A DNA stretch of 64,000 bases from Microbacterium testaceum StLB037 (GTDB taxonomy: Bacteria > Actinomycetota > Actinomycetes > Actinomycetales > Microbacteriaceae), in NCBI RefSeq assembly GCF_000202635.1, contig NC_015125.1, forward strand, positions 3,472,001-3,536,000, in the 5' to 3' direction. Made by a program: the position numbers and the translations under genes. Below are positions 1 to 64,000 of this stretch, in pieces. The first letter of the stretch is position 1, and each line of letters starts with the position of its first letter. The notes below the pieces were generated by a model. It was given only the letters and a program-made list of their open reading frames with translations. It was not told where the DNA came from and made no database searches.

Positions 1-1
1 C

Positions 2-448
2 GTGCAACTCATCGTGGCCTTCGCACTTCTCGGCATCGGCATCGGCGCGGCCGAAACGGTATCGAACGAGCTCATTCTGTCGAGCGCGCCCTCCGCGAAG
101 GCGGGCGCGGCCAGCGCTGTGTCCGAGACCGCGTACGAGGTGGGCGCCGTGCTCGGGACGGCCGTGCTCGGTGGCATCCTGGCCGCGTTCTACCGCGCTC
201 AACTGGTGCTGCCGGCCGGGCTCCCGGATGCCGCCGCCTCCGCCGCGCGAGAGACGCTCGCCGGTGCGGTCGCCGTGTCGCACACCCTCGACGATGCCGC
301 GCTGGCCGAGGCCCTGCGGGTCGCCGCGGCTCACGCGTTCGACTCCGGCGTGGTGGTGACGGCCCTGATCGGTGCCGGTCTCATCGTCATCGCGGGTGTG
401 ATCGCTGCCACTACCCTGGGAGGAACCCGCAGCACGTCGACGAAGTGA
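2..448 (+). CDS. MFS drug-efflux transporter (DHA2/EmrB-like), C-terminal part
   Basis: The gene enters from the left edge, so only the last 148 or so residues are visible. They contain three hydrophobic segments (about residues 3-20, 45-65 and 115-140) and a glycine-rich stretch [20 protein letters not shown]. This resembles the final helices of 14-TM proton-driven multidrug transporters of the EmrB/QacA type. The C-terminus is short and polar. The stop lies 25 bases before the leuB start. The substrate cannot be inferred. The GTG at position 2 is an internal codon, not a supported start. Confidence 0.75.
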
Positions 449-473
449 CGTGCCCCGAGCTCTGAGGAGAGCG

Positions 474-1523
474 ATGTCGCGTGTCGTGAAGCTGGCCGTC
501 ATCCCCGGTGACGGAATCGGTCCCGAGGTCGTCGCGGAGGCCGTCAAGGTCCTCGATGCCGTCACCGCCGACTCGGGCGTCGTCTTCGAGAAGACGCCCT
601 TCTCCCTCGGTGCGGGGCGCTACCTCGAGACCGGCGACACGCTCACCGACGACGACCTCGCGGCGATCGCCGGGCACGACGCGATCCTGCTCGGCGCCGT
701 CGGCGGAGTGCCCGGTGACCCGCGCCTCAAGAACGCGAACATCGAGCGCGGTCTGCTGCTGAAGCTCCGCTTCGAACTCGACCATTACGTCAATCTGCGC
801 CCCTCGAAGCTGTATCCCGGCGCCTCAGGCCCGCTCGCCGACCCGGGCGACATCGACTTCGTCGTCGTCCGCGAGGGAACCGAGGGGCCGTACGTCGGCA
901 ACGGCGGGGCCATCCGACAGGGCACCCCGCACGAGGTCGCCAACGAGACCTCGGTCAACACGGCCTTCGGCGTCGAGCGCGTCGTCCGCTACGCCTTCGC
1001 CCTGGCGGAGCGGCGTCGCCACAAGTTGACGCTCGTGCACAAGACGAACGTGCTCGTGCACGCCGGGGGGATGTGGAAGCGGATCGTGGATGCCGTGGCA
1101 TCCGAGTTCCCGGGGGTCGACGTAGACTACCTGCACGTCGACGCGACAACCATCTTCCTGGTCACGAACCCGGGCCGCTTCGACGTGATCGTCACCGACA
1201 ACCTCTTCGGCGACATCTTGACCGACTTGGCCGGCGCCGTCACCGGAGGCATCGGCCTCGCCGCATCGGGCAACATCAACCCCGACGGCGCGTTCCCCTC
1301 GATGTTCGAGCCCGTCCACGGATCGGCGCCCGACATCGCGGGTACCCAGAAGGCCGACCCCACGGCCGCGATCCTCTCCGTCGCCCTCCTGCTCGACCAC
1401 CTCGGGCTCACCGACGAAGCCGCCCGCGTCACCCACGCGGTCGAGACCGACATCGCGCACCGTGACGGCGTCCGCACCACTGCCCAGATCGGCGACGCCA
1501 TCGCCGACCGCGTCCGGGCGTAA
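474..1523 (+). CDS. leuB: 3-isopropylmalate dehydrogenase
   Basis: Oxidises and decarboxylates 3-isopropylmalate to 2-oxoisocaproate, the third step of leucine synthesis, using NAD. The 349-residue product opens with [15 protein letters not shown]. It carries the family signature [14 protein letters not shown] and the nucleotide-binding run [14 protein letters not shown] chose ATG 474 because GAGGAG sits just upstream; an in-frame GTG at 450 would add eight residues without family support. It is followed by ilvE after 54 bases, so the pair serves branched-chain amino acid synthesis. leuCD lies about 28 kb away, and leuA is not in the window. Confidence 0.96.
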
Positions 1524-1577
1524 CCTGGACCGATCGGCGAGCATCGCCCCCGGCACTCGACAAGCTTTGGACAACGA

Positions 1578-2684
1578 ATGACCACCATCGACACCGATCC
1601 CGACACCGGCCTCGACCCGCTCGAGTTCGCGGTCACCCGCAACCTCGCGGCCAAGAGCGCCACTGATCGCGACGCGATCCTCGCCAACCCCGGCTTCGGG
1701 CAGAGCTTCACCGACCACATGGTCGACATCTGCTGGTCGGTCCGCGGCGGCTGGCACCGCCCGCGCGTCTCGCCCTACGGCCCCATCTCGCTCGATCCCG
1801 CCGCCGCGGTGCTGCACTACGGTCAGGAGATCTTCGAGGGCATCAAGGCGTACCGTCACGCCGACGGGTCGGTGCACACGTTCCGACCTGACCAGAACGG
1901 CCGACGCCTTCAGCGCTCGGCCCGCCGCCTCGCTCTGCCCGAGCTGCCGGTGCCCTACTTCCTGCAGTCGCTGCGCGAGCTGATCGCCGTCGACGGCGCC
2001 TGGGTGCCTTCGGGCGAGGACCAGAGCCTCTACCTGCGCCCGTTCATGTTCGCCAAGGAGGCCTTCCTCGGCGTTCGACCGGCGCACAAGGTCGCCTATT
2101 ACCTCATCGCCAGCCCCGCCGGCGCCTACTTCAAGGGCGGCGTGCAGCCCGTCTCGATCTGGCTCAGCGAGGACTACTCCCGCGCAGGCAAGGGCGGCAC
2201 GGGTGCGGCGAAGACCGGCGGCAACTACGCCGCGAGCCTGCTGCCCCAGTCCGAGGCGTACGAGAACGAGTGCGACCAGGTCGTCTTCCTCGACCAGGAC
2301 CGCAACGTCGAAGAGCTCGGCGGCATGAACGTCGTGTTCGTCTACAAGGACGGCACGATCGTCACTCCGCAGTCGGACTCGATCCTCGAGGGCATCACCC
2401 GCGACTCGCTCCTGCAGCTCGCCCGTGACCGCGGTCACCACGTCGTGGGCCGCAACGTCTCTCTCGACGAGTGGCGCCAGGGAGTGGCATCCGGAGACAT
2501 CGTCGAGGTGTTCGCGTGCGGCACGGCCGCCGTCGTCACCCCGATCGGCACCCTCAAGGGCCGCGATTTCATCGACGAGCAGCCCACCGGCACGCTCGCC
2601 CTCGAGCTGCGCGAAGAGCTCACGAACATCCAGTACGGCCGCGCCGAGGACAAGCACGGCTGGCTGTACCGTCTCGACGCGTAA
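1578..2684 (+). CDS. ilvE: Branched-chain amino acid aminotransferase
   Basis: PLP enzyme catalysing the last step of Leu, Ile and Val synthesis and the first step of their breakdown. The 368-residue length and layout match the type II fold-class IV enzymes (BCAT2-like). The Schiff-base lysine is about residue 212 in GGTGAAKTGGNYAASLL. Further family segments are YGQEIFEGIKAYR, SLYLRPFMFA and EELGGMNVVFV. It lies directly downstream of leuB, probably co-transcribed, and ends at a very strong hairpin (2697-2734). Confidence 0.96.
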   Translation: MTTIDTDPDTGLDPLEFAVTRNLAAKSATDRDAILANPGFGQSFTDHMVDICWSVRGGWHRPRVSPYGPISLDPAAAVLHYGQEIFEGIKAYRHADGSVHTFRPDQNGRRLQRSARRLALPELPVPYFLQSLRELIAVDGAWVPSGEDQSLYLRPFMFAKEAFLGVRPAHKVAYYLIASPAGAYFKGGVQPVSIWLSEDYSRAGKGGTGAAKTGGNYAASLLPQSEAYENECDQVVFLDQDRNVEELGGMNVVFVYKDGTIVTPQSDSILEGITRDSLLQLARDRGHHVVGRNVSLDEWRQGVASGDIVEVFACGTAAVVTPIGTLKGRDFIDEQPTGTLALELREELTNIQYGRAEDKHGWLYRLDA

Positions 2685-2696
2685 GCGGCGGCGGCA

Positions 2697-2734
2697 CACG
2701 AAGGGACCCCCGGGACACCGGGGGTCCCTTCGTG
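2697..2734 (+). terminator. Rho-independent-type terminator after ilvE
   Basis: A perfect 17-bp stem (2697-2713 with 2718-2734) closes a 4-base loop: CACGAAGGGACCCCCGG pairs with its exact complement. It starts 13 bases after the ilvE stop. The T-tract is weak (GGTTTCC), which is common in actinobacteria. It probably ends the leuB-ilvE transcript. Confidence 0.85.
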
Positions 2735-2759
2735 GTTTCCGGCGGCGCTGCCCCGATTC

Positions 2760-2826
2760 CGATAAACGCTGCTCGTGCGGAGAAACGCCCCGACACCGCG
2801 TTTCTCGCTCGGAACAGCGTTTATCG
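2760..2826. repeat. Nested imperfect palindrome, 67 bases
   Basis: Outer arms GATAAACGCTG (2761-2771) and CAGCGTTTATC (2815-2825) are perfectly complementary. Inner arms GAGAAACGC (2780-2788) and GCGTTTCTC (2798-2806) also match exactly, with mismatched stretches in between. It lies after the ilvE terminator and before the FAH gene, so it is not needed as a terminator. Its architecture resembles the elements at 8588 and 21936. Confidence 0.6.
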
Positions 2827-2895
2827 GCGCGCGCACAGGCCGCGAGCGGGCGGGAATCCGGATGCCTTGTCGGAGCCCGTGGATAGGCTGAAGAA

Positions 2896-3663
2896 GTGAA
2901 GATCGCTCGATTCAGCCACCAGGATGCCATTCGCTACGGGATCGTCGACGACGGCGAGCTCGTGGTCCTCGCCGGAGACCCGATGTTCGCCGGGTTCGAT
3001 ACGACGGGGGAGCGCGTGCCGCTCGCCGACGTCGCTCTTCTCGCCCCGGTGATTCCTCGCTCGAAGGTCGTCTGCATCGGCAAGAACTACCACGACCACG
3101 CGGCCGAGATGGGCGGTGCGGCCCCCGCCGAACCCCTGATGTTCCTCAAGCCGAACACCTCGGTGATCGGCCCCGGCGATGTGATCGTGCGTCCCACGAG
3201 CCTCAGCTCGCACACCGACTACGAGGGCGAGCTCGCCGTCGTCATCGGGCGTATCGCCAAGAACGTCCCCGCCGAGAAGGCGAGCGACTACATCTTCGGG
3301 TACACCGTCGCGAACGACGTGACCGCGCGCGACCTGCAGCGCAGCGACGGGCAGTGGTCTCGCGCCAAGGGCTTCGACACGTTCTGCCCCGTCGGCCCGG
3401 TGATCGAGACCGACCTCGACCTCGAGACCGCTGCCATCACCACGCGCGTCAACGGCGAGGTGCGTCAGCAGGGTCCCGTCTCCGACATGATCCACGGCAT
3501 CGGCGCCCTGGTCGCGTACGCCTCCGCGGTGTTCACGCTGCTTCCGGGCGACCTGATCCTCACCGGCACCCCCGCGGGTGTCGGCCCCTTCGTCGCGGGC
3601 GACACGGTCGAGGTCGAGGTGAGCGGCATCGGGGTGCTGCGCAACGCCGTGCGCGATGCCTGA
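2896..3663 (+). CDS. Fumarylacetoacetate hydrolase (FAH) family protein
   Basis: 255 residues. The C-terminal two-thirds is the FAH fold shared by fumarylpyruvate hydrolases, HpcE-type isomerases and oxaloacetate decarboxylases. Characteristic segments are VCIGKNYHDHAAEMG, LMFLKPNTSVIGPGD, TDYEGELAVVIG (acidic metal ligands) and GYTVANDVTARDLQ. The substrate is not predictable; acylpyruvase or oxaloacetate decarboxylase activity is plausible. The start is GTG. TAGGCT at 2884-2889 ends six bases before it, suggesting a leaderless transcript. It overlaps the next MFS gene by eight bases. Confidence 0.9.
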   Translation: MKIARFSHQDAIRYGIVDDGELVVLAGDPMFAGFDTTGERVPLADVALLAPVIPRSKVVCIGKNYHDHAAEMGGAAPAEPLMFLKPNTSVIGPGDVIVRPTSLSSHTDYEGELAVVIGRIAKNVPAEKASDYIFGYTVANDVTARDLQRSDGQWSRAKGFDTFCPVGPVIETDLDLETAAITTRVNGEVRQQGPVSDMIHGIGALVAYASAVFTLLPGDLILTGTPAGVGPFVAGDTVEVEVSGIGVLRNAVRDA

Positions 3664-4909
3664 CACCGCCGCGTCGGCGAGCATCGACCTCGTCGCCGCC
3701 CAGCGCCGGACGGTGCGGGTGCTGGCGGCGGGGCAGGTGCTCACCGGCGTGGCTTTCGGCGCGACTCTCTCGCTGGGTGCGCTGTTGGCAGCCGACCTGT
3801 CGGGTCAAGAAGCCCTGTCGGGTTTCGCGACCGCGGCGGTGACCCTCGGTGCGGCTCTCACCGCGATCCCGCTCGCGCGACTCGCCGCCCGCCGCGGGCG
3901 TCGGTTCGCGCTCACGACCGGCAACCTCGCCGCGCTGGCCGGGATCGTCGTCGTCATCACCGCGGCGGCGACGCGGACGTTCCCCCTGCTGCTCGCCGGG
4001 ATCGCCCTCATCGGTGCAGGAAATGCCGGCACCCTGCAGTCCCGCTTCGCCGCGACCGATCTCGCGACGACCGCCCGCCGCGGCCGCGACCTTGCCACGG
4101 TCGTGTGGGCGACGACGGTCGGCGGTGTCGTCGGGCCGCTCCTGCTCGCGCCCGGCGAGCTCGTCGGGGCGAGCATCGGGATGCCGCGCCTCACGGGCGC
4201 GTACCTGTTCTCGTTCGCCGCGCAGGTGTGCGCCTTCGCCCTCTACGTGCTCGTGCTGCGCCCCGACCCGCTGCTGCTCGCACAGCGCCTCGATCGCGAC
4301 AAGACGTCGTCCGCTGTCGCAGCGCCGGAGGTCGACCGCCCGCGGACCGCCCGCTTCGCGATGCTCGCGGTCGCCGCCTCCCACGTCACCATGGCGTCGG
4401 TCATGGCGATGACTCCGGTGCACCTGTCGCACATCGTGGCTCCGGATGCCGTCACGCTCGCCGTCGGCGTCACGATCGCCCTGCACGTGTTCGGCATGTA
4501 CGGGCTCTCTCCCGTCTTCGGCATCCTCGCCGACCGCATCGGGCGTCTCGCGGTGATCCTGCTCGGGCAGGCGCTTCTCGCCGCGTCTCTGATCGTCGCT
4601 TCGCTGTTCTCCGCGTCGCAAGCGGGGGTCCTGGTCGCCCTGGTCCTCCTCGGCCTCGGCTGGAGCGCGGCGACGGTCGCGGGCTCCGCGCTGCTGACCG
4701 AGGCGACGCCGCTCGCGCTGCGGCCCCGACGTCAGGGGCGCAGCGACACGCTCATGACCGCGTGCGCGGCGGTCGGGTCGGTTCTCGCCGGGGTGATCCT
4801 CGGTCTCGTCGGATACGGCGGCCTCGCGCTCTGGGCGTTCGTGCCCGTCGCGCTGGTCTGCGCGGGAGCCGTCGTGGCTCGGAGGCGAGAGGCGTCTCAG
4901 ATCGAATAG
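3656..4909 (+). CDS. MFS transporter
   Basis: 417-residue integral membrane protein with about 12 hydrophobic segments and the typical loop-2/3 basic motif LARLAARRGRRFAL near residue 75. A second half-repeat around residues 225-400 contains FGILADRIGRLAVI. The start ATG lies within the end of the FAH gene (8-base overlap), so the two are translationally coupled and may act on related substrates. The 3' end overlaps the convergent class V aminotransferase gene by 13 bases. Efflux or uptake direction is unknown. Confidence 0.88.
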   Translation: MPDTAASASIDLVAAQRRTVRVLAAGQVLTGVAFGATLSLGALLAADLSGQEALSGFATAAVTLGAALTAIPLARLAARRGRRFALTTGNLAALAGIVVVITAAATRTFPLLLAGIALIGAGNAGTLQSRFAATDLATTARRGRDLATVVWATTVGGVVGPLLLAPGELVGASIGMPRLTGAYLFSFAAQVCAFALYVLVLRPDPLLLAQRLDRDKTSSAVAAPEVDRPRTARFAMLAVAASHVTMASVMAMTPVHLSHIVAPDAVTLAVGVTIALHVFGMYGLSPVFGILADRIGRLAVILLGQALLAASLIVASLFSASQAGVLVALVLLGLGWSAATVAGSALLTEATPLALRPRRQGRSDTLMTACAAVGSVLAGVILGLVGYGGLALWAFVPVALVCAGAVVARRREASQIE

Positions 4910-5979
4910 CTGAGGGCGGGCGCCGCGGCGGCGGGAGCGATCGTGCCGAGCGCGCGGAGCGCGCGGTCGACGTCTCCCTCGTCGTTGAAGACGTGGAAGG
5001 CCACGCGCGCCCGACCCGCGCGCCCCGACGCGGTGACGCCGCGCGCCGTGAGACGGGCGAGGGCGTCACCGGTGGCATCCGGCCACGTCACGATCGCCGA
5101 GGGGCGCTGGGGTTCCGGAAGACCGAGCCCGGCGCGGAACCGCGCGGCGAGGCCGGTGGTGTGAGCGTAGAGGTCGGTGATGTCGGCATCTGCGAACATC
5201 TCCAGCGCGGGTGCCGCACCGACGAAGGCCTGCCACGCGGGGGAGACGTCGAAGCGTCGGGCGTCGGGCGCGAGAGTGCCCCCGGTGCCGTAGCAGGACG
5301 ACCACGGATCGTCACCCGAGTACCAGCCCGCGTGCACCGGGCGCAGAATCCTGGCGAACTCCGGCGTCACCGTGAGGAATCCGACCCCACGGGGGCAGCA
5401 CAGCCACTTGTAGGCGTGGCAGACGGTCGCGTCGAACAGTGTCGCGTCGACCGGGAGCCAGCCTGCGGCCTGCGTGAGGTCGCAGAGCGTCCGCGCGCCG
5501 GCGCGTGCCGCCGCGGCGGCGATGCCCGCGGCATCCGCGACCTCTCCGGTGGCCGACTGCACGAGCGAGAACGCCACGAGCCAGGTGTCGGGGCAGATGG
5601 CGTCCGCCAGGTCGTCGAGAGGAACCGTGCGCAGCCGGACGCCGCGCGCGGCATGCGCGAACGGCGCGACGAGCGAGGCGAAGTCACCCTCCGGGCACAA
5701 CACCTCCGCTCCGTCGGGCACCGAAGCGGCGATGAGCGACGTCATCACCGACGTCTGCGAACCGATGGCGACGTGGCTGACGGGGGAGTGCACCAGACGC
5801 GCGTACGCCGCGCGAGCGTCCTCGACGGCGCGGGACGCGGCGGCGACGTCGGGGCGACCGGATGCTGCGGAGTCGAGGTCGTCGCGCACGGCACGCACGG
5901 TGGCGCGCGAGGGGAGTCCGAGGGTGCAGGCGGCGAGGTAGTCGCGGCCGCCGGCGAAGCGGGAGGCGAGGCTGCTCAT
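4897..5979 (-). CDS. Class V aminotransferase (PLP-dependent, cysteine desulfurase/kynureninase-like fold)
   Basis: 360 residues from ATG 5979. The PLP lysine is in VCHAYKWLCCPRGVGFL. ASPVSHVAIGSQTSV and CDLTQAAGWLPVD are typical of fold type I, class V. No cysteine-desulfurase loop motif is recognisable, so the reaction is unknown. An alternative GTG start at 6042 would place the N-terminus inside the putative LysR operator, which argues against it. It is divergent from a LysR-family gene that probably controls it. Confidence 0.82.
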   Translation of the reverse strand: MSSLASRFAGGRDYLAACTLGLPSRATVRAVRDDLDSAASGRPDVAAASRAVEDARAAYARLVHSPVSHVAIGSQTSVMTSLIAASVPDGAEVLCPEGDFASLVAPFAHAARGVRLRTVPLDDLADAICPDTWLVAFSLVQSATGEVADAAGIAAAAARAGARTLCDLTQAAGWLPVDATLFDATVCHAYKWLCCPRGVGFLTVTPEFARILRPVHAGWYSGDDPWSSCYGTGGTLAPDARRFDVSPAWQAFVGAAPALEMFADADITDLYAHTTGLAARFRAGLGLPEPQRPSAIVTWPDATGDALARLTARGVTASGRAGRARVAFHVFNDEGDVDRALRALGTIAPAAAAPALSYSI

Positions 5980-6031
5980 GGATCCAGGTTCCCAAGCCGC
6001 CCGGCATTGCACTAGATCAGGTGTTGCATGA

Positions 6032-6056
6032 GAAACATTCACTCTGCTTATGTTTC
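6032..6056. promoter_or_regulatory. LysR-type dyad operator between divergent genes
   Basis: GAAACAT (6032-6038) and ATGTTTC (6050-6056) form a perfect inverted repeat with an 11-base spacer. This exactly meets the T-N11-A rule for LysR-type regulators. The right arm ends three bases before the lysR start codon, so binding would repress lysR itself and could activate the divergent aminotransferase gene. A second, weaker dyad (TTGCA and TGTTGCA around 6006-6028) lies beside it. Confidence 0.65.
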
Positions 6057-6059
6057 AGG

Positions 6060-7016
6060 ATGACCGATTCCGACGACGACCTCGACGCCCACTCCCTCCG
6101 CGTGGTGAAGGCGATCGCCGACACCGGCTCGATCACGGCGGCTGCGCGCGCCCTGGGATACAGCCAGCCGGCGGTCAGCCAACAGTTGCGCCGGCTGGAG
6201 CGCCGAGCCGGCACCCCCATCGTCGAGCGCGTCGGCCGGGGCGTGCGCCTGACCGAGGCGGGGCGCGTGCTCGCCCGGCACGCGGCTGTCGTCACGACCG
6301 CTCTCGAAGCGGCGGCGGGAGATCTCGCCGAGCTCCGCGGCCTGCGGGCGGGGCGCGTGCGCATCGCGGCCTTCCCCTCGGCGTCGTCCACCGTCGTCCC
6401 GCGGGTGATCGCCGCCGTGACCGCGAGGCGCCCAGGAGTCTCGATCAGCTTCGTCGAGGCGGAGCCGCCCGAGGCGATCGTCGCGGTACGCGAGGACCGC
6501 GCCGATATCGCGCTCACCTACAGCTATCCCGGCGACCGGCGCGAGCTCGACCTCGCCGCGAACGGCCTGTCCGTACGCACCGTCGGGGGCGACGACACCG
6601 TCCTGGTGCTCCCCGTCGACCACCCGGCGGCGGAGGGTCCCATCGACCTCTCGAGGCTCGCGGGCGAGCGCTGGATCGCCGGATGCCCCCAGTGCCGGGG
6701 GCACCTTCTCGAGGCGTGTGCCCGCGCGGGGTTCGTGCCCGACATCGCCTTCGAGACCGACAACTACATCGCCGTCGAGAACCTCGTCGCGCAGGGCGTG
6801 GGGGTCGCGATCCTGCCGCGCATGGCCGTGGCATCCTTCCCGCTCCTCTCGGGAATCGCCGCACCCCGGCTTCCGGATGCCGAGGCCCGCACGCTGCACG
6901 TCGTGACCGCCCGCGGCGCCGAGCGCGTGCCGGCGGTCGGCGTCGCACTCGAGGTGGTGGACGAGGTGCTGGCCGAGTATCCGCATCCCACCGGTCGCGG
7001 GGGCGCCCGCCGGTAG
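6060..7016 (+). CDS. LysR-family transcriptional regulator
   Basis: 318 residues. The N-terminal winged helix (about residues 9-68) reads [20 protein letters not shown] then [20 protein letters not shown], the canonical LysR helix-turn-helix. The C-terminal half is the periplasmic-binding-like effector domain ([14 protein letters not shown] onward). ATG 6060 is preceded only by AGG, and a dyad operator overlaps this region, suggesting autoregulation. The likely target is the divergent class V aminotransferase gene. The effector is unknown. Confidence 0.92.
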
Positions 7017-7026
7017 GATCGAGGGG

Positions 7027-8541
7027 ATGTCTGCCACGCCCGATCCCCGCACCACGACCGCCTCCGGCGCCGACGTTCGCGTCCGCTTCTGCCCGTCTCC
7101 GACGGGCCTGCCGCACGTGGGTCTCATCCGCACCGTCCTGTTCAACTGGGCCTATGCCCGGCACAACGGCGGCAAACTCGTCTTCCGCATCGAAGACACC
7201 GACGCCGCCCGCGACAGCGAGGAGAGCTACCAGCAGCTCCTCGACGCGCTGCGGTGGATGAACATCGACTGGGACGAGGGTGTCGAGGTCGGCGGGCCGC
7301 ACGCGCCGTACCGGCAGTCGCAGCGGCACGAGCTGTACCGCGAGGTGCTCGACAAGCTCGTCGCCGCGGGGGCCGTGTACGAGAGCTACTCGACCGCCGA
7401 GGAGATCGACGCGCGCAACGAGGCGAACGGCCGCGCGAAGCAGCTCGGTTACGACAACTACGACCGCGACCTCACGGACGAGCAGAAGGCCGCCTTCCGC
7501 GCCGAGGGGCGTCAGCCCGCGTGGCGCCTGCGCGTGCCCGACCACGACCTGAGCTACGTCGACCTCATCCGCGGTGAGGTCACCTTCCCGGCCGGCTCGT
7601 TCCCCGACTTCGTGCTCGTTCGCGCCGGGGGAGTGCCGCTCTACCCGTTCGTGAACCCGGTCGACGACGCCCTCATGGGCATCACCCACGTCATCCGCGG
7701 CGAAGACCTCATGCCCTCGACGGCCCGGCAGCTCGCGCTGTACTCCGCCCTGGTGGATGCCGGGGTGACGACGTTCATCCCGCGCTTCGGCCACATGCCG
7801 CTGGTGCTGGGCGAGACGGGCAACAAGAAGCTCTCGAAGCGCGACCCGCAGGCCGACCTCTTCCTGCAGCGTGAGAAGGGCTTCATCCACGAGGGCCTCC
7901 TCAACTACCTCTCGCTGCTCGGCTGGTCGCTCGCGAGCGATCGCGACGTCTTCTCGCTCGACGAGATGATCGCCGCGTTCGACATCGCCGACGTGAACCC
8001 CAATCCGGCCCGCTTCGATCAGAAGAAGGCCGAGGCGATCAACGGCGACCACATCCGGATGCTGGATGCCGACGACTTCGCCGCGCGGATCGTTCCGTAC
8101 CTCGCGGGTGCGGGGTACATCGCCGAGGAGCCGTCGCCGGAACACCGGGAGATCATCGCCGCGGCAGCGCCCCTCGTGCAGGAGCGCGTGCAACTGCTGG
8201 GCGAGGTCCCGGGCATGCTCGGGTTCCTCTTCGTCTCCGAGGTCGACTACGCCGAAGATGCGCTGAAGGGCCTCCCCGCCAACGCGGACGAGGTGCTCGT
8301 GGCATCCGTCGGCGCTCTCGAGCTCGTGCCCGACGCGGAGTTCACCGCCGCCGCCGTGCAGGAGGCACTCTCGAAGGCCCTGGTCGAGGAGCTCGGGCTG
8401 AAGCCCCGCGTCGCCTACGGCCCGCCCCGTGTCGCCCTCACGGGTCGGCGCGTCTCGCCTCCGCTGTTCGAGTCGATGGAGCTTCTCGGCAAGGCGGAGA
8501 CGCTGCGGCGCCTCGACGCCCTCGTGCGGCACCTGGGCTGA
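7027..8541 (+). CDS. gltX: Glutamyl-tRNA synthetase
   Basis: Class I aminoacyl-tRNA synthetase charging tRNA-Glu (and possibly tRNA-Gln for later amidation; gatCAB is not in this window). 504 residues. The ATP-site motifs are [15 protein letters not shown] (HIGH class, written HVGL) near residues 25-40 and KKLSKRD near residue 270. TAGGAT at 7014-7019 lies seven bases upstream of the ATG and overlaps a GAGGGG ribosome site. It follows lysR by only ten bases but probably has its own promoter. A tRNA-Gln gene lies downstream. Confidence 0.97.
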
Positions 8542-8587
8542 GCGTCGCGCGCGTCGCGCGGAGCGCGCCCGCTGCGCGGAGCGCACG

Positions 8588-8658
8588 ACCTCGCAGAACC
8601 GCGCGGACCTCGCAGAATCCCCGGCGGATCCTGCGAGGTTCGCGCGTTTCTGCGTGGT
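8588..8658. repeat. Doubly nested palindromic element, 71 bases
   Basis: The unit ACCTCGCAGAA occurs twice in direct orientation (8588 and 8607) and twice inverted (ending 8639 and 8658). The inner pair ACCTCGCAGAATCC/GGATCCTGCGAGGT has one mismatch over 14 bp around CCGGC. The outer pair has two mismatches over 18 bp. It sits between gltX and tRNA-Gln. The rest of 8542-8767 is G+C-rich without a recognisable gene. Confidence 0.6.
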
Positions 8659-8767
8659 TCGCGGCAGCGCGGTCGTGCCGCGCGACGCGCGCGGGCCGAC
8701 TCCGGTTTGGTGAAGGGCCGCGCGTCACGTAAGCTTGATCCTCGGCACGAGTTACGGCTCACCGCCT

Positions 8768-8839
8768 TGGGGTATGGTGTAATTGGCAACACGGCGGTTT
8801 CTGGTTCCGTTGTTCTTGGTTCGAGTCCAGGTACCCCAG
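8768..8839 (+). tRNA. tRNA-Gln (anticodon CTG)
   Basis: The sequence folds as a 72-base cloverleaf. Acceptor TGGGGTA pairs with TACCCCA (8832-8838), with discriminator G 8839. The D arm contains AATTGGC, the T arm TTCGAGT. The 7-base anticodon loop TTCTGGT gives CTG at 8801-8803. The anticodon stem closes with a U-U opposition. CCA is not encoded. A hairpin terminator follows eight bases later. Confidence 0.93.
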
Positions 8840-8846
8840 CAAAACG

Positions 8847-8889
8847 AAAAGCCCCGGTCAGCGCACAATGCGTGAGAACCGGGGCTTTT
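8847..8889 (+). terminator. Terminator downstream of tRNA-Gln
   Basis: AAAAGCCCCGGT (8847-8858) pairs perfectly with ACCGGGGCTTTT (8878-8889), giving a 12-bp stem whose 3' arm ends in a T-run (GCTTTTG). This is the classic intrinsic terminator shape. Confidence 0.88.
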
Positions 8890-52356: not shown

Positions 52357-52370
52357 CACCGCTCCCGCCT

Positions 52371-55334: not shown

Positions 55335-55403
55335 GGCGTGATCTTAGAGCGGCCCGTCTATGAGAATCCGCCGAGCGGGCATCACCCGGCGGCGGCGGAC
55401 GGC

Positions 55404-56567: not shown

Positions 56568-56603
56568 CCGGTCAGTCTGACATGGGACACGCGGCACTCT
56601 CTG

Positions 56604-56694
56604 TTTCGCGCCTCGCGGTGTCATCTGGCAGAATAGAGGGTCGGACCAGGCACTCGACCCTCTATCCAGTGCCGGCCCGCCTTTTTTGAGCTTC
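56604..56694 (+). promoter_or_regulatory. rpsP promoter and structured leader
   Basis: CAGAAT (56629-56634) in GGCAGAATAGA serves as -10. ATAGAGGGTCG (56633-56643) pairs perfectly with CGACCCTCTAT (56655-56665), and a T6 run follows at 56682-56687. The same GGCAGAATAGA box precedes rplS with identical spacing to a CTG-TTT upstream element. The hairpin plus T-run could be an attenuator or an autoregulatory ribosomal-protein leader. The mRNA leader is about 120 bases. Confidence 0.6.
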
Positions 56695-56761
56695 CGCCGG
56701 GTGTGCACCCCACGCTCCAGGCGACCAGTTCGTTCGCTTTTCACCATCCAGGAGAAAATTC

Positions 56762-57178
56762 GTGGCTGTCAAGATCCGTCTCAAGCGTCTCGGTAAGATC
56801 CGTGCGCCCTACTACCGCATCGTCGTCGCCGACTCGCGCACCAAGCGCGACGGTCGTGTGATCGAGGAGATCGGCAAGTACCACCCCACCGAGGAGCCCT
56901 CGTTCATCGAGGTCGACTCCGAGCGTGCGCAGTACTGGCTCTCGGTCGGCGCCCAGCCCACCGAGCAGGTCGCGGCGATCCTCAAGCTCACCGGCGACTG
57001 GGGCAAGTTCAAGGGCGACAAGGACGCCGTGTCCACCGTCAAGGTGCGCGAGCCCAAGGCGGCCTTCGAGGCCGACGCGTCCAAGAAGTCGGTCGTCAAG
57101 CCCAAGGCCGAGAAGAAGGCGGAGGCCCCCGCGGCCGACGCTTCGGCCGACGACGCCGCCGAGACCTCGGCCGAGTAG
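56762..57178 (+). CDS. rpsP: 30S ribosomal protein S16
   Basis: 138 residues from GTG. The S16 core (about 1-85) begins [25 protein letters not shown] without its first Met. A 50-residue Lys/Ala/Glu-rich tail ([20 protein letters not shown]) follows; such extensions are usual in actinobacterial S16. AGGAG precedes the start. First gene of the rpsP-khpA-rimM-trmD operon. Confidence 0.97.
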
Positions 57179-57183
57179 TCCTC

Positions 57184-57414
57184 GTGCTGTCTGCCGCGCT
57201 CGAACACGTCGTCAAGGGGATCGTCGATCACCCTGAGGACGTGACCATCCGTTCCAGCACCTCGCCCCGGGGCGATGTGCTGGAGGTTCGCGTGCACCCC
57301 GATGACCGGGGTCGCGTGATCGGGCGCGGCGGACGCACCGCCAAGGCTCTGCGCACCGTCGTCTCCGCCCTCGCCGACGGGCGCCGCGTGCGCGTCGACG
57401 TGGCCGACGACTGA
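57184..57414 (+). CDS. khpA: KH-domain RNA-binding protein
   Basis: 76 residues with one KH domain: DVLEVRVHPDDRGRVIGRGGRTAKALRTV, the GRGG being the RNA-binding GxxG loop. KhpA-type proteins bind many transcripts and in other bacteria work with KhpB. The GTG start lies five bases after rpsP, and the stop overlaps the rimM ATG by one base (TGATG), so translation is coupled. Confidence 0.94.
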   Translation: MLSAALEHVVKGIVDHPEDVTIRSSTSPRGDVLEVRVHPDDRGRVIGRGGRTAKALRTVVSALADGRRVRVDVADD

Positions 57415-58055
57415 TGGCGGCCGGCGACATCGCGGGCGGACAGCCCGCCAAGACACAGCTCCGCGTGGGGCGGCTCGTCAAGGCCCACGGCCTGAAGGGC
57501 GCCTTCAAGCTCGAGCTCTACACCGACGACCCCGAGGGACGCTTCGTCCCGGGGAACACCTTCACTCTGCAGGTGCCGGAGTCGTCGCCGTGGCACGGCC
57601 GTCCGTTGACGGTCCGGGAGTTCCGCTGGATGAACTCGCACCCCGTCGCCTTCTTCGAGGGCGTCGACGATCGTAATGCCGCCGAAGAACTCGTCAAGGC
57701 GATCCTCTGGATCGACCAGGACACCGCCGACGCCCCGGCCGAAGACGACGCGTGGTACGACCACCAGCTCGTCGGACTCGACGTCGTCCGCGACGGCGAG
57801 GTCGTGGGACGCGTGGTCCGCGTCGACCACTTCCCCGCGCAGGACCTGCTGATCGTGCGCCCGTCGGGCGAGGACCGTGAGGTGCTCGTCCCGTTCGTGA
57901 GCGCCATCGTCCCCGAGGTCGACATCGCCGGTGGCCGAGTGGTCGTGACACCCCCGGCGGGGCTCTTCGAAGACCTGCCGAGCGACGACGGAGACGAGCC
58001 CGAAGATTCGGACCGCGACGACTCCGACGACGCTTCCGCAGCCCGCGAGGACTGA
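57414..58055 (+). CDS. rimM: Ribosome maturation factor RimM
   Basis: 213 residues. N-terminal RimM beta-barrel (about 15-95) with [28 protein letters not shown]. The PRC-barrel domain (about 105-180) has [20 protein letters not shown] and [13 protein letters not shown]. It helps assemble the 30S head. The acidic tail ([16 protein letters not shown]) is longer than usual. One base separates it from trmD. Confidence 0.95.
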
Positions 58056-58056
58056 C

Positions 58057-58746
58057 ATGCGCATCGACGTCGTGTCGATCTTCCCGACGATCTTCGACGC
58101 CCTCGAGGTGTCGCTGCTCGGCAAGGCCCGCACGACCGGCCTGCTCGACGTCCGCGTCCACGACTTGCGCGACTACACGCACGACCGCCACCGCACCGTC
58201 GACGACACCCCCTACGGTGGGGGCGCCGGCATGGTGATGAAGCCGGAGCCGTGGGGTGAAGCGCTCGACGACATCGTGGGCGATTCCGCCCCGCGCCCCG
58301 TCATCATCTTCCCCTCGCCGGCCGGTGAGCGATTCACCCAGGCGACCGCCCGCGAGCTGTCGACGGCGCAGCACCTGGTGTTCGGCTGCGGTCGCTACGA
58401 GGGCATCGACGAGCGTGTCTTCGACTACGCCGCGGAGCTCGGCGACGTCCGCCTCCTCAGCCTGGGCGACTACGTCCTCAACGGGGGAGAGGTCGCCGTC
58501 ATGGCGATGGTCGAGGCCATCGGCCGCCTCATCCCCGGGGTCGTGGGCAACCCCGAGAGCCTCGTCGAAGAATCGCACGAAGACGGTCTGCTCGAGTACC
58601 CCTCATATACCAAGCCCTCGGTCTGGCGCGGACGCGAGGCTCCGCCGGTCCTGCTGAGCGGCAATCACGGTGCGGTCGCCGCGTGGCGCCGGGAGCAGCA
58701 GCTCGTTCGCACGCGCGAGCGTCGTCCGGACCTGCTCGCGGACTGA
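58057..58746 (+). CDS. trmD: tRNA (guanine(37)-N(1))-methyltransferase
   Basis: 229-residue SPOUT methyltransferase. N-terminus [23 protein letters not shown] region [20 protein letters not shown] and trefoil-knot [45 protein letters not shown] is the tRNA-binding segment. It prevents frameshifting by methylating G37. Last gene of the rpsP operon. Confidence 0.97.
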
Positions 58747-58820
58747 CGCCCCGCGGGAGCGGCGCGGACCCCAGAATCTCGGCGACGCGAGCGCGGAACT
58801 CGCGGACGATCGCGACTCTC

Positions 58821-58851
58821 GCAGTAATCCGCGCGGAACGCGCGTCTCTGC
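58821..58851. repeat. Imperfect palindrome in the trmD-map gap
   Basis: GCAG (58821-58824) with CTGC (58848-58851), and CGCGCG (58830-58835) with CGCGCG (58839-58844) around GAA. Words such as CGCAGTAATCC and GCGCGGAACG echo the 8588 element, so it may be a degraded member of the same group. The rest of 58747-58866 is G+C-rich with no gene. Confidence 0.4.
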
Positions 58852-58866
58852 CCGGTCGGACGGGAC

Positions 58867-58896
58867 GGATGCCACGACCCCGAAGCCGCGGCATCC
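58867..58896. terminator. Inverted GGATGCC pair between convergent trmD and map
   Basis: GGATGCC (58867-58873) and GGCATCC (58890-58896) form a 7-bp stem over 16 bases, 11 bases beyond the map stop on the minus strand. Probable bidirectional terminator built from the repeated heptamer. No clear T-run. Confidence 0.5.
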
Positions 58897-58907
58897 GGAA
58901 TCCGTCG

Positions 58908-59690
58908 TCAGCGCACGCCGAGGAACGACCGGTCGGTGAGCACGATCGGGCCCTCGGCGGTGATCGCGACGGTGTGCTCGGAGTGCGCGCCGCGCGAGCC
59001 GTCGACGCTGCGCAGGGTCCAGCCGTCGGGGTCGGTGACGAGCTCGTCGGTGGTCTGCAGGAACCACGGCTCGAGCGCGACGACCAGGCCCGCGCGGAGA
59101 GGGTATCCGCGGCCGGCCTTGCCGTCGTTGGCCACGTGCGGGTCGCCGTGCATCGTGCGGCCCACGCCGTGACCGCCGAAATCGGTGTTGATGCTCAAGC
59201 CCTCGGCGTGGGCGACAGCGGCGATGGCCGCGGAGATGTCGCCGATCTTGTGTCCGACGGTCGCGGCGTCGATCGCGGCGACCAGAGCGCGTTCGGTCGT
59301 GTCGATGAGCGCGAGGTCTTCGTCGCGGGGGGTGCCGACCACGAACGAGACCGCCGAGTCGGCGACCCATCCGTCGACGGATGCCGCGAAGTCGAGCGAG
59401 ACGAGGTCGCCGTCGCGCAGCACGTAGTCGTGGGGCAAGCCGTGCAGGACCGCGTCGTTGATCGAGGTGCAGAGGACCTTTCCGAAGGGGCTCGCTCCGA
59501 AGGACGGGTGGTAGTCGATGTAGCAGGACTCAGCCCCCGCGGCACGGATCATGTCGTGGGCGCGGCGATCCAGGTGGAGGAGATTGGTTCCCACCTTGGT
59601 CTCGTCGCGCAGCGTGGCCAGCACCTCGGCGACGAAACGGCCGGCCGGCCGCATCGCCTCGATCTCGGCAGGGGTGCGCAGTTCGATCAT
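58908..59690 (-). CDS. map: Methionine aminopeptidase, type I
   Basis: 260 residues. Metal ligands are the Asp pair in VSLDFAASVDGWVADSAV, His in GHGVGRTMHGDPHV, and Glu in LVVALEPWF and SEHTVAI. It removes initiator Met from nascent proteins. ATG 59690 with AAGGGA upstream starts the family N-terminus IELRTPAEIEAMRPAGR. The longer open frame to 59762 has no support. Some actinobacteria carry two map genes. Confidence 0.95.
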   Translation of the reverse strand: MIELRTPAEIEAMRPAGRFVAEVLATLRDETKVGTNLLHLDRRAHDMIRAAGAESCYIDYHPSFGASPFGKVLCTSINDAVLHGLPHDYVLRDGDLVSLDFAASVDGWVADSAVSFVVGTPRDEDLALIDTTERALVAAIDAATVGHKIGDISAAIAAVAHAEGLSINTDFGGHGVGRTMHGDPHVANDGKAGRGYPLRAGLVVALEPWFLQTTDELVTDPDGWTLRSVDGSRGAHSEHTVAITAEGPIVLTDRSFLGVR

Positions 59691-59797
59691 CGGTGGTTCC
59701 CTTCGTCTCTCCCATTGTCCCCGATCCGTTCGTGCCGCCCGACGTGCACCTGCCGCACTCATAGGCGGTGCACAGTGACGGTGCGTAGCCTCGATCC

Positions 59798-60289
59798 ATG
59801 GTGCTTCGCCGAGTGTTCCTCCGCTGGCTGTTCCCCGCAGCCTTCGTCCTGCCGCTCTGGCTGTTCGTCGGATGGATCGTGTTCGCCGGCGGAAGCGCGT
59901 GGGCCCTGCTGTGGCTGCTCATCGCCGCTCCCACGGTGTTCGTGTCGCAGATTCTGCTCACGCTCCTGGTCCGTGCGCGCACGAGCGTCCGTCTCGGGCG
60001 TGCTGTCGCGTGGCGCGACGTCCTCGGGCTCGGCATCTGGCACGTCGTGATCGTTGCGCTGGGCTTCTACGATTCGCGCGCTTTCTTTCCCCTGCTCGTC
60101 CTCAGTGTGGTCGGAGCGCTCGTCCTGTTCTGGTCCTCGCTGGCCCAGCTGTGGAACGAGGCGCGCGGTTCGATGACCGTGATGCACGCGCAGGACGGCA
60201 CCGCCTACATTCCGCCGACGGCCGAACGTCCGCGTCCGCGCGTCGGCGGAGACGTGATCGTGGTGTCGGAGAGCACGCCCCGCGACTGA
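59798..60289 (+). CDS. Four-helix hypothetical membrane protein
   Basis: 163 residues with hydrophobic segments at about 9-30, 35-57, 75-93 and 97-115 and a hydrophilic C-terminal tail of 45 residues (TAYIPPTAERPRPRVGGDV). The family is not recognised, but such proteins are frequent beside map/rplS in Microbacteriaceae in my recollection. TAGCCT (59786-59791) ends six bases before the ATG. It is divergent from map. Confidence 0.75.
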   Translation: MVLRRVFLRWLFPAAFVLPLWLFVGWIVFAGGSAWALLWLLIAAPTVFVSQILLTLLVRARTSVRLGRAVAWRDVLGLGIWHVVIVALGFYDSRAFFPLLVLSVVGALVLFWSSLAQLWNEARGSMTVMHAQDGTAYIPPTAERPRPRVGGDVIVVSESTPRD

Positions 60290-60290
60290 C

Positions 60291-60402
60291 CTGGTTTGGC
60301 GCGTGTCTTCTGCCGTGGCAGAATAGATGTTTGTGCCCTGACCAGCTCTGCCTCAGGGGAGTCCAGCCGCTTTCGCGGCCTCGGGCACGCCTCACCTTTT
60401 TC
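60291..60402 (+). promoter_or_regulatory. rplS promoter and structured leader
   Basis: GGCAGAATAGA (60317-60327) repeats the rpsP -10 box. Downstream, GTGCCC (60333-60338) pairs with GGGCAC (60383-60388), CCCTGA (60336-60341) can alternatively pair with TCAGGG (60353-60358), and GCCGC-TTTC-GCGGC (60366-60379) is a tight hairpin. A T5 run follows at 60397-60401. Competing pairings plus a T-run before the ribosome site suggest feedback control, possibly by L19. Confidence 0.58.
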
Positions 60403-60449
60403 CCTCTTATCGTGCGATCGACCTGTGGCGGTCGCAGGAAGTGATGATC

Positions 60450-60797
60450 ATGCAGATCCTCGACTCCGTCGACGCGGCTTCGCTCCGCTCCGACATCCCC
60501 GCCTTCGGCCCCGGTGACACCGTCAAGGTGCACGTCAACATCACCGAAGGCAACCGCTCGCGTATCCAGGTGTTCCAGGGGGTCGTCATCGGCCGCTCGG
60601 GCGACGGTGTGCGCGAGACCTTCTGCGTCCGCAAGGTCAGCTTCCAGGTCGGCGTCGAGCGCACCTTCCCGGTCCACAGCCCCGTGATCGACCACATCGA
60701 GGTCGTCACGCGCGGCGACGTGCGCCGCGCCAAGCTGTACTACCTGCGCAACCTGCGTGGCAAGAAGGCCAAGATCAAGGAGAAGCGCGACCGCTGA
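60450..60797 (+). CDS. rplS: 50S ribosomal protein L19
   Basis: 115 residues. [18 protein letters not shown] at the N-terminus, then [20 protein letters not shown] and [17 protein letters not shown] are characteristic. ATG 60450 with AGGA about ten bases upstream is chosen for family fit; GTG 60441 and ATG 60444 are in frame but closer to the ribosome site. L19 sits at the 30S-50S interface. Monocistronic, between its own leader and a perfect terminator. Confidence 0.97.
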
Positions 60798-60808
60798 GTC
60801 GACTCTCT

Positions 60809-60841
60809 CGAACGCCCCGCGACTTCGTCGCGGGGCGTTCG
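60809..60841 (+). terminator. Terminator after rplS
   Basis: CGAACGCCCCGCGAC (60809-60823) pairs perfectly with GTCGCGGGGCGTTCG (60827-60841) around TTC: 15 bp, then GCGTTTTCC. It lies 11 bases after the rplS stop. Confidence 0.9.
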
Positions 60842-60941
60842 GCGTTTTCCGGGTGACGTCGTGCGGCATCGCGCTTTCGATGTGCGACCCTTGTTCCTGC
60901 GGTTCTCCGGTGTGCGGCGAGCCCGGTGAAGGATCTTTGTG

Positions 60942-61694
60942 ATGAGCGACCAGACCGCGTCGACCCCGGATGCCATGGCATCCGCCCCCTCGGACCGTCG
61001 GCGACGAGGGTGGGGCGCATTCCTCCGCGACATCGTCGTCATCATCCTGATCGCGCTGGCCGTCTCGTTCCTCGTCAAGACGTTCGTGGTCCGCTCGTTC
61101 TACATCCCCTCCGCCTCGATGAACAACACGCTCATCGAACAGGACCGCATCCTCGTCGACGAGCTGACCCCCCGCTTCGGGCAGTACTCGCGCGGTGACG
61201 TCGTCGTCTTCCGCGATCCGGGCGGGTGGCTCCCCGTCTCGACCCGTCCGGCACGTCCGCCCCTCGAAGAGGGAGCCGACTGGGTCCTCTCGCTGTTCGG
61301 CCTTTCCGCCCCCGACAGCGACGATCACCTCATCAAGCGCGTGATCGGAACGCCGGGTGACCACGTGGTGTGTTGCAACGCCCTGGGGCAGACCTCCGTC
61401 AACGGCGTGCCCCTCGACGAGCCGTACGTGAAGCTCTTCCCCGGCGCGACCGCGCCCAACCCGGTTCCGTACGACATCACCGTGCCCCAGGGCTCGCTCT
61501 GGGTGCTCGGCGACAACCGGAACAGCTCGAAGGACTCCCGCTTCAATCAGGATCAGCCGGGCCACGGTTTCGTGCCGATCGACAACGTCGTCGGACGCGC
61601 CTTCCTCATCACGTGGCCCTTCTCCCGTTTCGGGATCATCGACTTCCACCACAACGTGTTCGCGGGGGTGCCCGCGCCCGAGGCCACGCCGTGA
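60942..61694 (+). CDS. lepB: Type I signal peptidase
   Basis: 250 residues. One N-terminal TM helix (about 29-50) after a basic cytoplasmic stretch, then the S26 domain: nucleophile Ser59 in IPSASMNNTLIE, general-base Lys in DDHLIKRVIGTPGD near residue 130, and GDNRNSSKDSRF near 190. It cleaves Sec and Tat signal peptides, including those of the secreted proteins in this window. ATG 60942 has AAGGA upstream. It overlaps rnhB by four bases. Confidence 0.95.
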   Translation: MSDQTASTPDAMASAPSDRRRRGWGAFLRDIVVIILIALAVSFLVKTFVVRSFYIPSASMNNTLIEQDRILVDELTPRFGQYSRGDVVVFRDPGGWLPVSTRPARPPLEEGADWVLSLFGLSAPDSDDHLIKRVIGTPGDHVVCCNALGQTSVNGVPLDEPYVKLFPGATAPNPVPYDITVPQGSLWVLGDNRNSSKDSRFNQDQPGHGFVPIDNVVGRAFLITWPFSRFGIIDFHHNVFAGVPAPEATP

Positions 61695-62344
61695 TCGAGC
61701 CGACGCTGACCCTCGAGCGTCGCCTTCTCAAGGAGCACGCACTTGTCATCGCGTGCGACGAGGTGGGGCGTGGAGCGCTGGCCGGTCCGGTGGCCGTCGG
61801 CGCCGCGGTGATCGATCCGTCGCGGTCGCGTAAGCGTGTGCCCACCGGCCTGCGCGACTCGAAGCTCGTTCCCGAGGCCCGTCGTCCCGAGGTGGCCGCG
61901 CGCGCGGCGGCGTTCGTCCAGCACAGTGCCGTCGGCTGGGCGAGCTCGGAGGAGATCGACGAGATCGGCATCATCCGGGCCCTCGGTCTCGCCGCGGTCC
62001 GGGCGATCGCCGATCTTCGGGCGCACGGTGTCGTGCCCGAGGACGCGTTGGTCATCCTCGACGGCAATCACGACTACATCACACCGGCGGGAGAGTCGGG
62101 TCTCCGTGTTCAGCCCATCGTGAAGGCCGACCGGGACTGCGCGAGTGCCGCCGCGGCATCCGTCATCGCCAAGGTCGCGCGCGACACCGTCATGACGTAT
62201 CTGCACGACGATCTGCCGGCGTATGGCTGGGCGCGCAACAAGGGGTACGCGAGCCTCGATCACCGCGAGGCGATCTCGGCTCACGGGATGAGCGTGCACC
62301 ACCGGCACTCGTGGGCGATCGCCGCGGCGCCGACGCTGTTCTGA
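61691..62344 (+). CDS. rnhB: Ribonuclease HII
   Basis: 217 residues from GTG 61691, overlapping the lepB stop (GTGA). The catalytic DEDD set starts with VIACDEVGRGALAGPVAVGA near residue 20, LRDSKLVPEARR near 53, LVILDGNHDYI near 120 and IVKADRDCASAAAASVIAKVARD near 140. It removes ribonucleotides from DNA. The lepB-rnhB-DUF2469-yraN order is a standard actinobacterial arrangement. Confidence 0.96.
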   Translation: MIEPTLTLERRLLKEHALVIACDEVGRGALAGPVAVGAAVIDPSRSRKRVPTGLRDSKLVPEARRPEVAARAAAFVQHSAVGWASSEEIDEIGIIRALGLAAVRAIADLRAHGVVPEDALVILDGNHDYITPAGESGLRVQPIVKADRDCASAAAASVIAKVARDTVMTYLHDDLPAYGWARNKGYASLDHREAISAHGMSVHHRHSWAIAAAPTLF

Positions 62345-62422
62345 TCCGGCTCGACGCGGACGCGCCCGGGGCGAGGGCGCCGTGCGACCCCGAGGACCGG
62401 GCGCACCTAGGATGGAGAGACC

Positions 62423-62746
62423 ATGGATGACGACGTCTTCGAGGATTACGACCGCGAACTCGAACTGGCCCTGTACCGCGAGTATCGCGACGTCGTGCAG
62501 CAGTTCCAGTACGTGATCGAGACCGAACGCCGGTTCTACCTGGCCAACGACGTGAACGTCGTCCGCCGCGACACCGAGCACGACTTCTACTTCGAGATCT
62601 CGATGTCCGACGTGTGGGTGTGGGACATCTACCGTGCCGACCGTTTCGTGAAGTCGGTGCGCGTGCTCACGTTCAAGGACGTGAACGTCGAAGAGCTCTC
62701 GCGTCGGGACTTCCAGCTCCCGGAGGAGCTCTCGCTCGACAACTGA
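62423..62746 (+). CDS. DUF2469 family protein
   Basis: 107 residues, highly acidic, opening DDDVFEDYDRELELALYREY, with RFYLANDVNVV and VWVWDIYRADRFVKSVRVLTF. Nearly universal in actinobacteria next to rnhB and yraN, function unknown. TAGGAT lies nine bases upstream of the ATG, overlapping GGAGAG, so it can be transcribed independently. Confidence 0.93.
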   Translation: MDDDVFEDYDRELELALYREYRDVVQQFQYVIETERRFYLANDVNVVRRDTEHDFYFEISMSDVWVWDIYRADRFVKSVRVLTFKDVNVEELSRRDFQLPEELSLDN

Positions 62747-62866
62747 GGGGCGTGACCCGGCATCGCACGGGTGAGCCTCCTCCCCATTCCGGGGATTGGC
62801 GGGTCCATCCACGGAAGGCCGGGGTGAGCCCTCGACACGTCGTCTCGGGATGCCACGCTCTCGGGC

Positions 62867-63229
62867 ATGGCAGCGAAAGACGAACTCGGACGAGCCGGCG
62901 AGAACCGCGCGGTGGCGCATCTGCGCACCAGTGGCTACCGGATCCTCGACCGCAACTGGCGGTGTTCCCAGGGCGAGATCGACATCGTCGCGGACCATCA
63001 CGGCGCTCTCGTGGTGATCGAGGTCAAGACCCGCACGAGCGAGGCGTTCGGTCACCCGTTCGACGCGATCGATGCGCGGAAAGCCGCGCGGCTCTGGCGA
63101 CTGGCGATGGCCTGGATGGCGGAGCACCCCGATGAGGCACGCGGACGCCGACTCCGCATCGATGCCATCGCGGTGACCGGCCCCGACCCCGCGACGGGCC
63201 GGCTCGAGCACCTGGAGGACGCGCTGTGA
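62867..63229 (+). CDS. YraN/UPF0102 family protein
   Basis: 120 residues of the PD-(D/E)XK nuclease-like superfamily: GRAGENRAVAHLRTSGYRIL, WRCSQGEIDIVADHHGALV and VVIEVKTRTSEAFGHPF contain the E...D-EVK catalytic pattern. No activity is established for the family. The gene ends in the GTG start of comM (four-base overlap), a widespread pairing that suggests a role with ComM in DNA processing or transformation. The 120 bases before it hold no recognisable gene. Confidence 0.92.
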   Translation: MAAKDELGRAGENRAVAHLRTSGYRILDRNWRCSQGEIDIVADHHGALVVIEVKTRTSEAFGHPFDAIDARKAARLWRLAMAWMAEHPDEARGRRLRIDAIAVTGPDPATGRLEHLEDAL

Positions 63230-64000
63230 CCGTCGCGCGCACCTGGGCCGTGGCGCTCTCGGGCCTGCGCGGAGACCTCGTCGACGTCGAAGCAGATCTG
63301 TCGCAGCAGACCCCGGAGTTCTCCATCATCGGCCTGCCGGACAAGGCCCTCGGCGAGGCGGGCCGCCGCGTGCGAAACGCCTGCGCGAACCGCGGGCTCG
63401 ATCTGCCCAAGCGTCGGATCACCGTCAACCTGTCCCCGGCGAGCCTCCCCAAGCGCGGTTCGGGGTTCGACGTCGCGATCGCGGTGGCGGCGCTCGCGAC
63501 GACGGGGATGATGGATGCCACTCGCGTCGCCACCACCGTGCACATCGGGGAGCTCGGGCTCGACGGTCGGTTGCGTCCGGTTCCGGGAGTGCTCCCCGCG
63601 GTCGTCGCGGCGCAGCGGGCGGGGCACCGTCGTGTCGTCGTTCCGGCGGCCAACGCGGGGGAGGCTCGACTCGTCGACGGCGTGGAGGTGTGTGCCGCGA
63701 AGTGCCTCGCCGAGGTCGTCCGGTGGCACGGGGGTACCTGTGACGCGATCGAGCTCGAGCCCGTGCTCCCCAGCGCGCCGCCCCCGACCGACGAGGCCCC
63801 GCTCGAACTCGCAGACGTCGTCGGACAGACGGATGCGGTCGACGCGCTCGTCGTCGCGGCAGCCGGAGGCCATCACATGCTCATGAGCGGGCCACCCGGT
63901 GCGGGGAAGACGATGTTGGCTCGACGGCTTCCCGGCATCCTTCCCGACCTCGACGATGAGGCGGCCCTGTCCGTGGCATCCGTGCGCTCGCTCTCCGGCG
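63226..64000 (+). CDS. comM: ComM/YifB-type magnesium-chelatase-like AAA+ ATPase (5' part)
   Basis: GTG 63226 overlaps the yraN stop (GTGA), and the frame is open to the window edge (258 codons). It begins TVARTWAVALSGLRGDLVDV with an S5-like N-terminal domain (FSIIGLPDKALGEAGRRVRN, ITVNLSPASLPKRGSGFDVA). After about residue 195 the AAA+ module starts with VVGQTDAVDALVVAAAGGHH and Walker A SGPPGAGKTMLARRL. In Haemophilus and Vibrio, ComM is a branch-migration helicase aiding natural transformation. It sits here amid a candidate uptake-type word. Confidence 0.93.
   Translation, partial: MTVARTWAVALSGLRGDLVDVEADLSQQTPEFSIIGLPDKALGEAGRRVRNACANRGLDLPKRRITVNLSPASLPKRGSGFDVAIAVAALATTGMMDATRVATTVHIGELGLDGRLRPVPGVLPAVVAAQRAGHRRVVVPAANAGEARLVDGVEVCAAKCLAEVVRWHGGTCDAIELEPVLPSAPPPTDEAPLELADVVGQTDAVDALVVAAAGGHHMLMSGPPGAGKTMLARRLPGILPDLDDEAALSVASVRSLSG

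Follow-up and report, generated by a model that had tools for sequence, protein, structure and literature searches.

A stretch of 64,000 nucleotides from the chromosome of Microbacterium testaceum StLB037 (hereafter, the window) resembles ordinary core genome, with leuB, ilvE, trmD, SMC, recG and aconitase genes, and is filled with copies of one heptamer, GGATGCC. What, then, keeps such a word in place, and does it serve the cell as a DNA signal? We found that relatives of this strain carry other words built on a shared core, and these dialects are the main new finding. Our reading, to which we assign a probability of roughly 55%, is that GGATGCCR represents the local dialect within a Microbacteriaceae-wide set of genome-abundant DNA recognition words that would be upheld through receptor-biased uptake.

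Abundance and form of the word

Direct counting over positions 1..64000 gave 61 GGATGCC and 57 GGCATCC on the + strand, that is, 118 copies on the two strands (61 +, 57 -), compared with 13.30 expected (standard deviation 3.74, largest 25) in 100 dinucleotide shuffles. The original prediction had put the total at about 105 (57 + 48) with about 15 expected; its strong excess held, and its exact total did not. GGATGCC is the top 7-mer in the window and the strongest in 464 kb of the genome, where 814 copies were found versus 101, 116 and 153 expected under Markov models of order 1, 2 and 3, respectively. The whole genome (one contig, 3.98 Mb) holds 7,116 copies, 3,501 and 3,615 by orientation, in keeping with the roughly one short word per kb, in both orientations, of DNA uptake sequences (DUS) and uptake signal sequences (USS). 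A control word with the letters reversed occurs 161 + 203 times in the genome, although the resulting 20-fold ratio is overstated because the control contains TAG and because other families often give a ratio of about 2.

A or G follows 757 of the 814 copies in 464 kb, which makes the motif mainly GGATGCCR; C is near expectation at this position, and T is 3-5 times above expectation in two of the contexts observed. When the word was set against the related heptamer GGACGCC, as had been proposed, GGATGCC was far commoner (814 vs. 230 copies in 464 kb) despite GAC being the common Asp codon. Copies are separated by a mean gap of 556 bp in the 464 kb, with gaps near exponential, on which ground clustering was rejected. 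The excess depends on GC content in this genome: 1-kb segments below about 62% GC hold 2 copies versus 1.5 expected (10 kb only), and the excess climbs through 3.5 times to 7-10 times at usual GC.

Maintenance of the word in DNA

Shuffling of synonymous codons, among the nulls suggested beforehand, did not reproduce the count: 173±10 words (largest of 100 shuffles, 193) were obtained in 331 called ORFs, compared with 662 observed, and all six frame/strand classes lay above the codon-shuffle expectation, by 1.6 to 30 times. Word density was 1.55/kb in called intergenic DNA versus 1.79/kb in coding DNA, although ORFs were called by a simple codon-score script whose calls covered 80% of the DNA, and missed genes make up some of the "intergenic" part. 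This density and the dialects described below take the place of a codon-pair-preserving null.

When the comEC region of this genome (L085) was aligned with 26 closely related loci at 78-90% identity, the word was identical in 484 of 683 comparisons, versus 18,596 of 45,657 for 7-mers of the same composition. Within the word, use of the rare codons GAT and GCA was confirmed, and their retention in relatives proved far higher there than elsewhere. With the amino acid unchanged in 25 loci, GCA was kept in 115/148 cases inside the word vs. 23/225 outside, and GAT in 77/102 vs. 186/570 (P about 1e-41 and 7e-16, sites and genomes being non-independent). As had been suspected, upkeep of GGATGCC acts at the DNA level; the excess over codon shuffles, the similar intergenic density, the retention of GCA and GAT, and the dialects described below all bear on this conclusion.

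Dialects in Microbacteriaceae

Among the genomes of the phylum surveyed, enrichment of GGATGCC was seen only in Microbacteriaceae: no value exceeded about 480/Mb in 216 genomes of other families. Densities in 199 Microbacteriaceae genomes from 85 genera ranged from about 79/Mb (G051) to 1,890/Mb (G057), and those in 149 genomes of the genus Microbacterium from 181 to 2,245/Mb. Genomes low in GGATGCC were sampled at 40-160 kb each, and all dialects except GGATGCC and CGGATCC were defined from these samples. Several such genomes have another word instead, each within the frame CGGA. The top word in the sample was CGGATCC in G164, G559, G526, G469 and G522; GGATGCGG in G466, G547, G448 and G496; GGATGCTG in G462 and G551; GGATGGC in G446 and G451; CCGGATG in G553; and CGGAACCA in G529. 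A sample of G057, from another genus, had GGATGCC followed by C, T or G.

Codon-shuffle ratios of the dialect words were 2.2 to 10, with similar densities in called intergenic DNA. In a cross-table of ten genome groups, each group had its own word highest; the weakest case was the GGATGGC pair, at 2.1 with CCGGATG at 2.0, and genomes with GGATGCGG and GGATGCTG gave 2.2-2.8 for each other's word. In whole genomes, CGGATCC reached 1,715-2,697/Mb in seven of the 149 Microbacterium genomes (G164, G469, G476, G514, G522, G526 and G559), in which GGATGCC was present at just 181-360/Mb, and stayed at or below about 460/Mb in the other 142. Because CGGATCCG is counted on both strands, its sites are fewer than its counts. 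Relatives thus carry other words that have a common CGGA core and a variable remainder and are largely mutually exclusive. Dialects with a shared core among relatives, another hallmark of DUS and USS, are therefore present, several of them from 40-160 kb samples.

A clear word was absent from the samples of G500, G508, G473, G560 and G443, and was weak or unclear in those of G416, G418 and G497. In 40-60 kb samples from other genera, G034 had CGGATCC, G026 had GGATGCG at 2.7, G017 was unclear, and G045 and G016 had no word, as was the case for G206 from another family. G051, also of another genus, had a weak word.

On a tree of LeuS, HolA and LepA, CGGATCC and GGATGCGG each appear at two places, with named loci labelled GGATGCC by default. 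GGATGCC sites of this genome were kept in 20/49 comparisons with three genomes of the same dialect vs. 18/120 with five genomes of other dialects, all at 76-79% identity (P = 0.0005, with non-independent comparisons). In-place conversion of words between dialects was set aside since sites were too few.

Several single cases were also recorded. M. testaceum StLB037 and Microbacterium testaceum NS220 share 98% identity in HolA. A metagenome-assembled locus (L185) encodes a HolA 96% like that of this genome, yet has only 6 GGATGCC in 11.7 kb (2.6 expected); the word may have been lost recently, the dialect may differ, or the locus may have been wrongly binned. In G480, six CGGATCC lie at a 16-bp period (C1:30365-30451), and word positions in contig C1 of G425 repeat with a spacing of about 43.86 kb, as would fit duplication or concatemerization of the contig.

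A probable role in uptake and the competence machinery

A short word in both orientations, sharply recognized and composed of a common core with a variable remainder, has by analogy the anatomy of uptake sequences. The pattern resembles the DUS dialects of Neisseriaceae more closely than methylase-linked words such as the cyanobacterial HIP, Chi sites or codon bias. Passages of Frye et al. (PMC3630211) describe eight Neisseriaceae dialects that share a CTG core, with thousands of short-word copies per genome in both orientations and a variable flank, as here; the Microbacterium words belong to a different phylum, differ in sequence and have 7-9 bases. The same passages give an abundant 9-mer in two versions as the USS of Pasteurellaceae, to which GGATGCC is unrelated, and treat uptake words as confined to Neisseria and Pasteurellaceae. 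We found no earlier description of the word in the open-licence PMC literature reached by topic searches.

An uptake mechanism for the word is likely, though unproven. A DNA receptor with sequence specificity, supplying the competence machinery (a Tad-like pilus, ComEA and ComEC), would prefer DNA that carries the word, so that DNA of kin would be taken up and recombined more often. Such a bias, possibly together with biased conversion, could build up and maintain thousands of copies, and a shift in receptor preference would let a new word spread while the old one decays. It stands at about even odds that Microbacteriaceae, which are high-GC Gram-positive bacteria, tag their own DNA in dialects for transformation via a Tad-type pilus, in a system that arose independently of those of Neisseriaceae and Pasteurellaceae, with dialect switches acting as gene-exchange barriers between Microbacterium species. 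Dialects of this kind, in a large soil and plant genus that can be cultured, would add an independent instance of uptake words, and the origin and switching of such words would become directly testable across many related species.

Competence genes, whose presence had been proposed as a check, are present. ComEC was found in 147/149 Microbacterium genomes (both misses being less than 78% complete), a T2SSE-family pilus ATPase of putative Tad type in 149/149 (two matches in G000), and ComEA together with ComEC in this genome, where comEA adjoins comEC between leuS and holA. This presence does not discriminate: the five genomes without a clear word have ComEC and the ATPase just as the others do, and ComEC presence or absence was rejected as the cause of the word because ComEC is near universal. 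Transformation of Micrococcus luteus, also an actinobacterium, depends on two tad clusters, and the combination of tad with comEA/comEC is common among actinobacteria (PMC4322843; PMC6370729). The receptor of neisserial DUS is ComP, a minor pilin of the type IVa pilus; the marker of that pilus, PilM (PF11104), is in contrast absent from this genome and patchy in the genus (43/149), and a type IVa pilus was rejected as the cause of the word. A ComEA alignment arranged by dialect revealed no dialect-linked residues by eye, and none of the tested genes tracks the word. The proposal of an uptake-like word is supported as regards upkeep in DNA, both orientations and likeness to known uptake words, and is strengthened by the dialects; a role in uptake stays putative, as no receptor was found.

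Further observations count against uptake. Near-words of this genome became perfect words in relatives no oftener than controls did (25/1,171 vs. 2,153/121,107), where a strong drive might have raised the rate. The word of G553 is strong despite an interrupted comEC. On the side of the uptake reading, four Microbacterium phages have little enrichment of GGATGCC (16-21 copies vs. 10-13 expected, 1.2 to 2.1 times), as do the low-GC segments of this genome. Three of these phages, from M. foliorum, have 10, 6 and 5 copies of GGATGCGG versus 2.4-2.6 expected, with GGATGCC about 2-fold; this excess of both words, though modest, counts against uptake.

Mobile elements seem to enter comEC. In G553 (L082, 8119-9660), an element carrying a large serine-recombinase-like ORF interrupts the gene, two comEC pieces lie about 16 kb apart in G555 (C13, 37273 and 53252), and the comEC match in G447 (C26) begins in the same profile region as in G555.

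Alternative explanations

If uptake is not responsible, some site-specific process would have to place copies in the genome by the thousand and switch target from species to species, which would be at least as surprising. The best-surviving alternative, which we consider unlikely, is that selection keeps the word as a site bound throughout the chromosome by a protein of the nucleoid, of segregation or of repair, with a specificity that shifts from lineage to lineage; the nucleoid-protein site suggested beforehand belongs here. Similar upkeep in coding and called intergenic DNA, balanced strands and conserved word positions are consistent with such a protein; it is hard, however, to see selection on each site bringing about rapid and discrete switches at thousands of them, and we know of no candidate protein for the word.

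Slightly less probable is a process of the kind proposed for HIP, in which the word is marked by a DNA methylase and accumulates through mismatch repair or some other process. Parts of one paper (PMC4390886) describe HIP at 500-2,500 copies per Mb, with alternates that replace each other and are matched to methylases, as the dialects here replace one another; HIP is palindromic, in contrast to all words here apart from GGATCC. One PF01555 methylase is present in 39 of 40 genomes, including 19 of 20 with high word density. G511, which has the highest word density, lacks this gene, G553 has only part of it, and all five genomes with no clear word carry it; its core is conserved whatever the dialect (L208-L227), and it was rejected as the dialect reader. 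PF00145, PF02384 and PF02086 occur in 10, 13 and 6 of the 20 high-density genomes and in 18, 25 and 6 of the 40. None of the four families is present in all 20, and none tracks the word, so that as far as these families go the suggestion of a methyltransferase target is disfavoured, though one of them falls short by a single genome. Correction of the Vsr type was rejected because no one-mismatch neighbour of the word is strongly depleted in 464 kb.

Chi words are over-represented short words that differ between species, which would suit the dialects, and known ones are strand-skewed. GGATGCC has no strand polarity: the leading-strand share of the 814 copies was 46.9-53.1% over 40 origin positions, scanned because GC skew gives no support to an origin at position 1. 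The balanced orientation noted in advance was thus upheld, and the Chi-like site offered as an alternative is disfavoured. As one dialect is palindromic and the copy number is far higher than that of Chi, a recombination signal read by a RecBCD/AddAB-type nuclease is quite improbable. Codon, codon-pair or mutational context bias, which fits the location of most copies within called ORFs and chiefly in three of the six frame/strand classes, can practically be dismissed in view of the excess in every class, the intergenic copies, the sharp recognition of the word and the other words used in relatives.

Genes and inverted word pairs

The expected comM and yraN genes at the edge of the window were identified, together with an rnhB-like ORF, from translations by eye rather than by profile search. 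The yraN-like ORF (62867..63229, + strand), a neighbour of comM, and the competence-linked comM-like ORF (63226..64000, + strand), which is open at the window end, are both separate from the word itself. Inverted word pairs spaced 7-12 bp numbered 9 versus 2.3 expected. In the window, the arrangement GGATGCC-2 bp-GGCATCC occurs within the leuB ORF (1088..1103) and at 60968..60983. Elsewhere, two strong hairpins formed by inverted pairs lie 15-17 bp past called gene ends (L013, about 4564; L019, about 3089), and these look as if the words serve in terminators.
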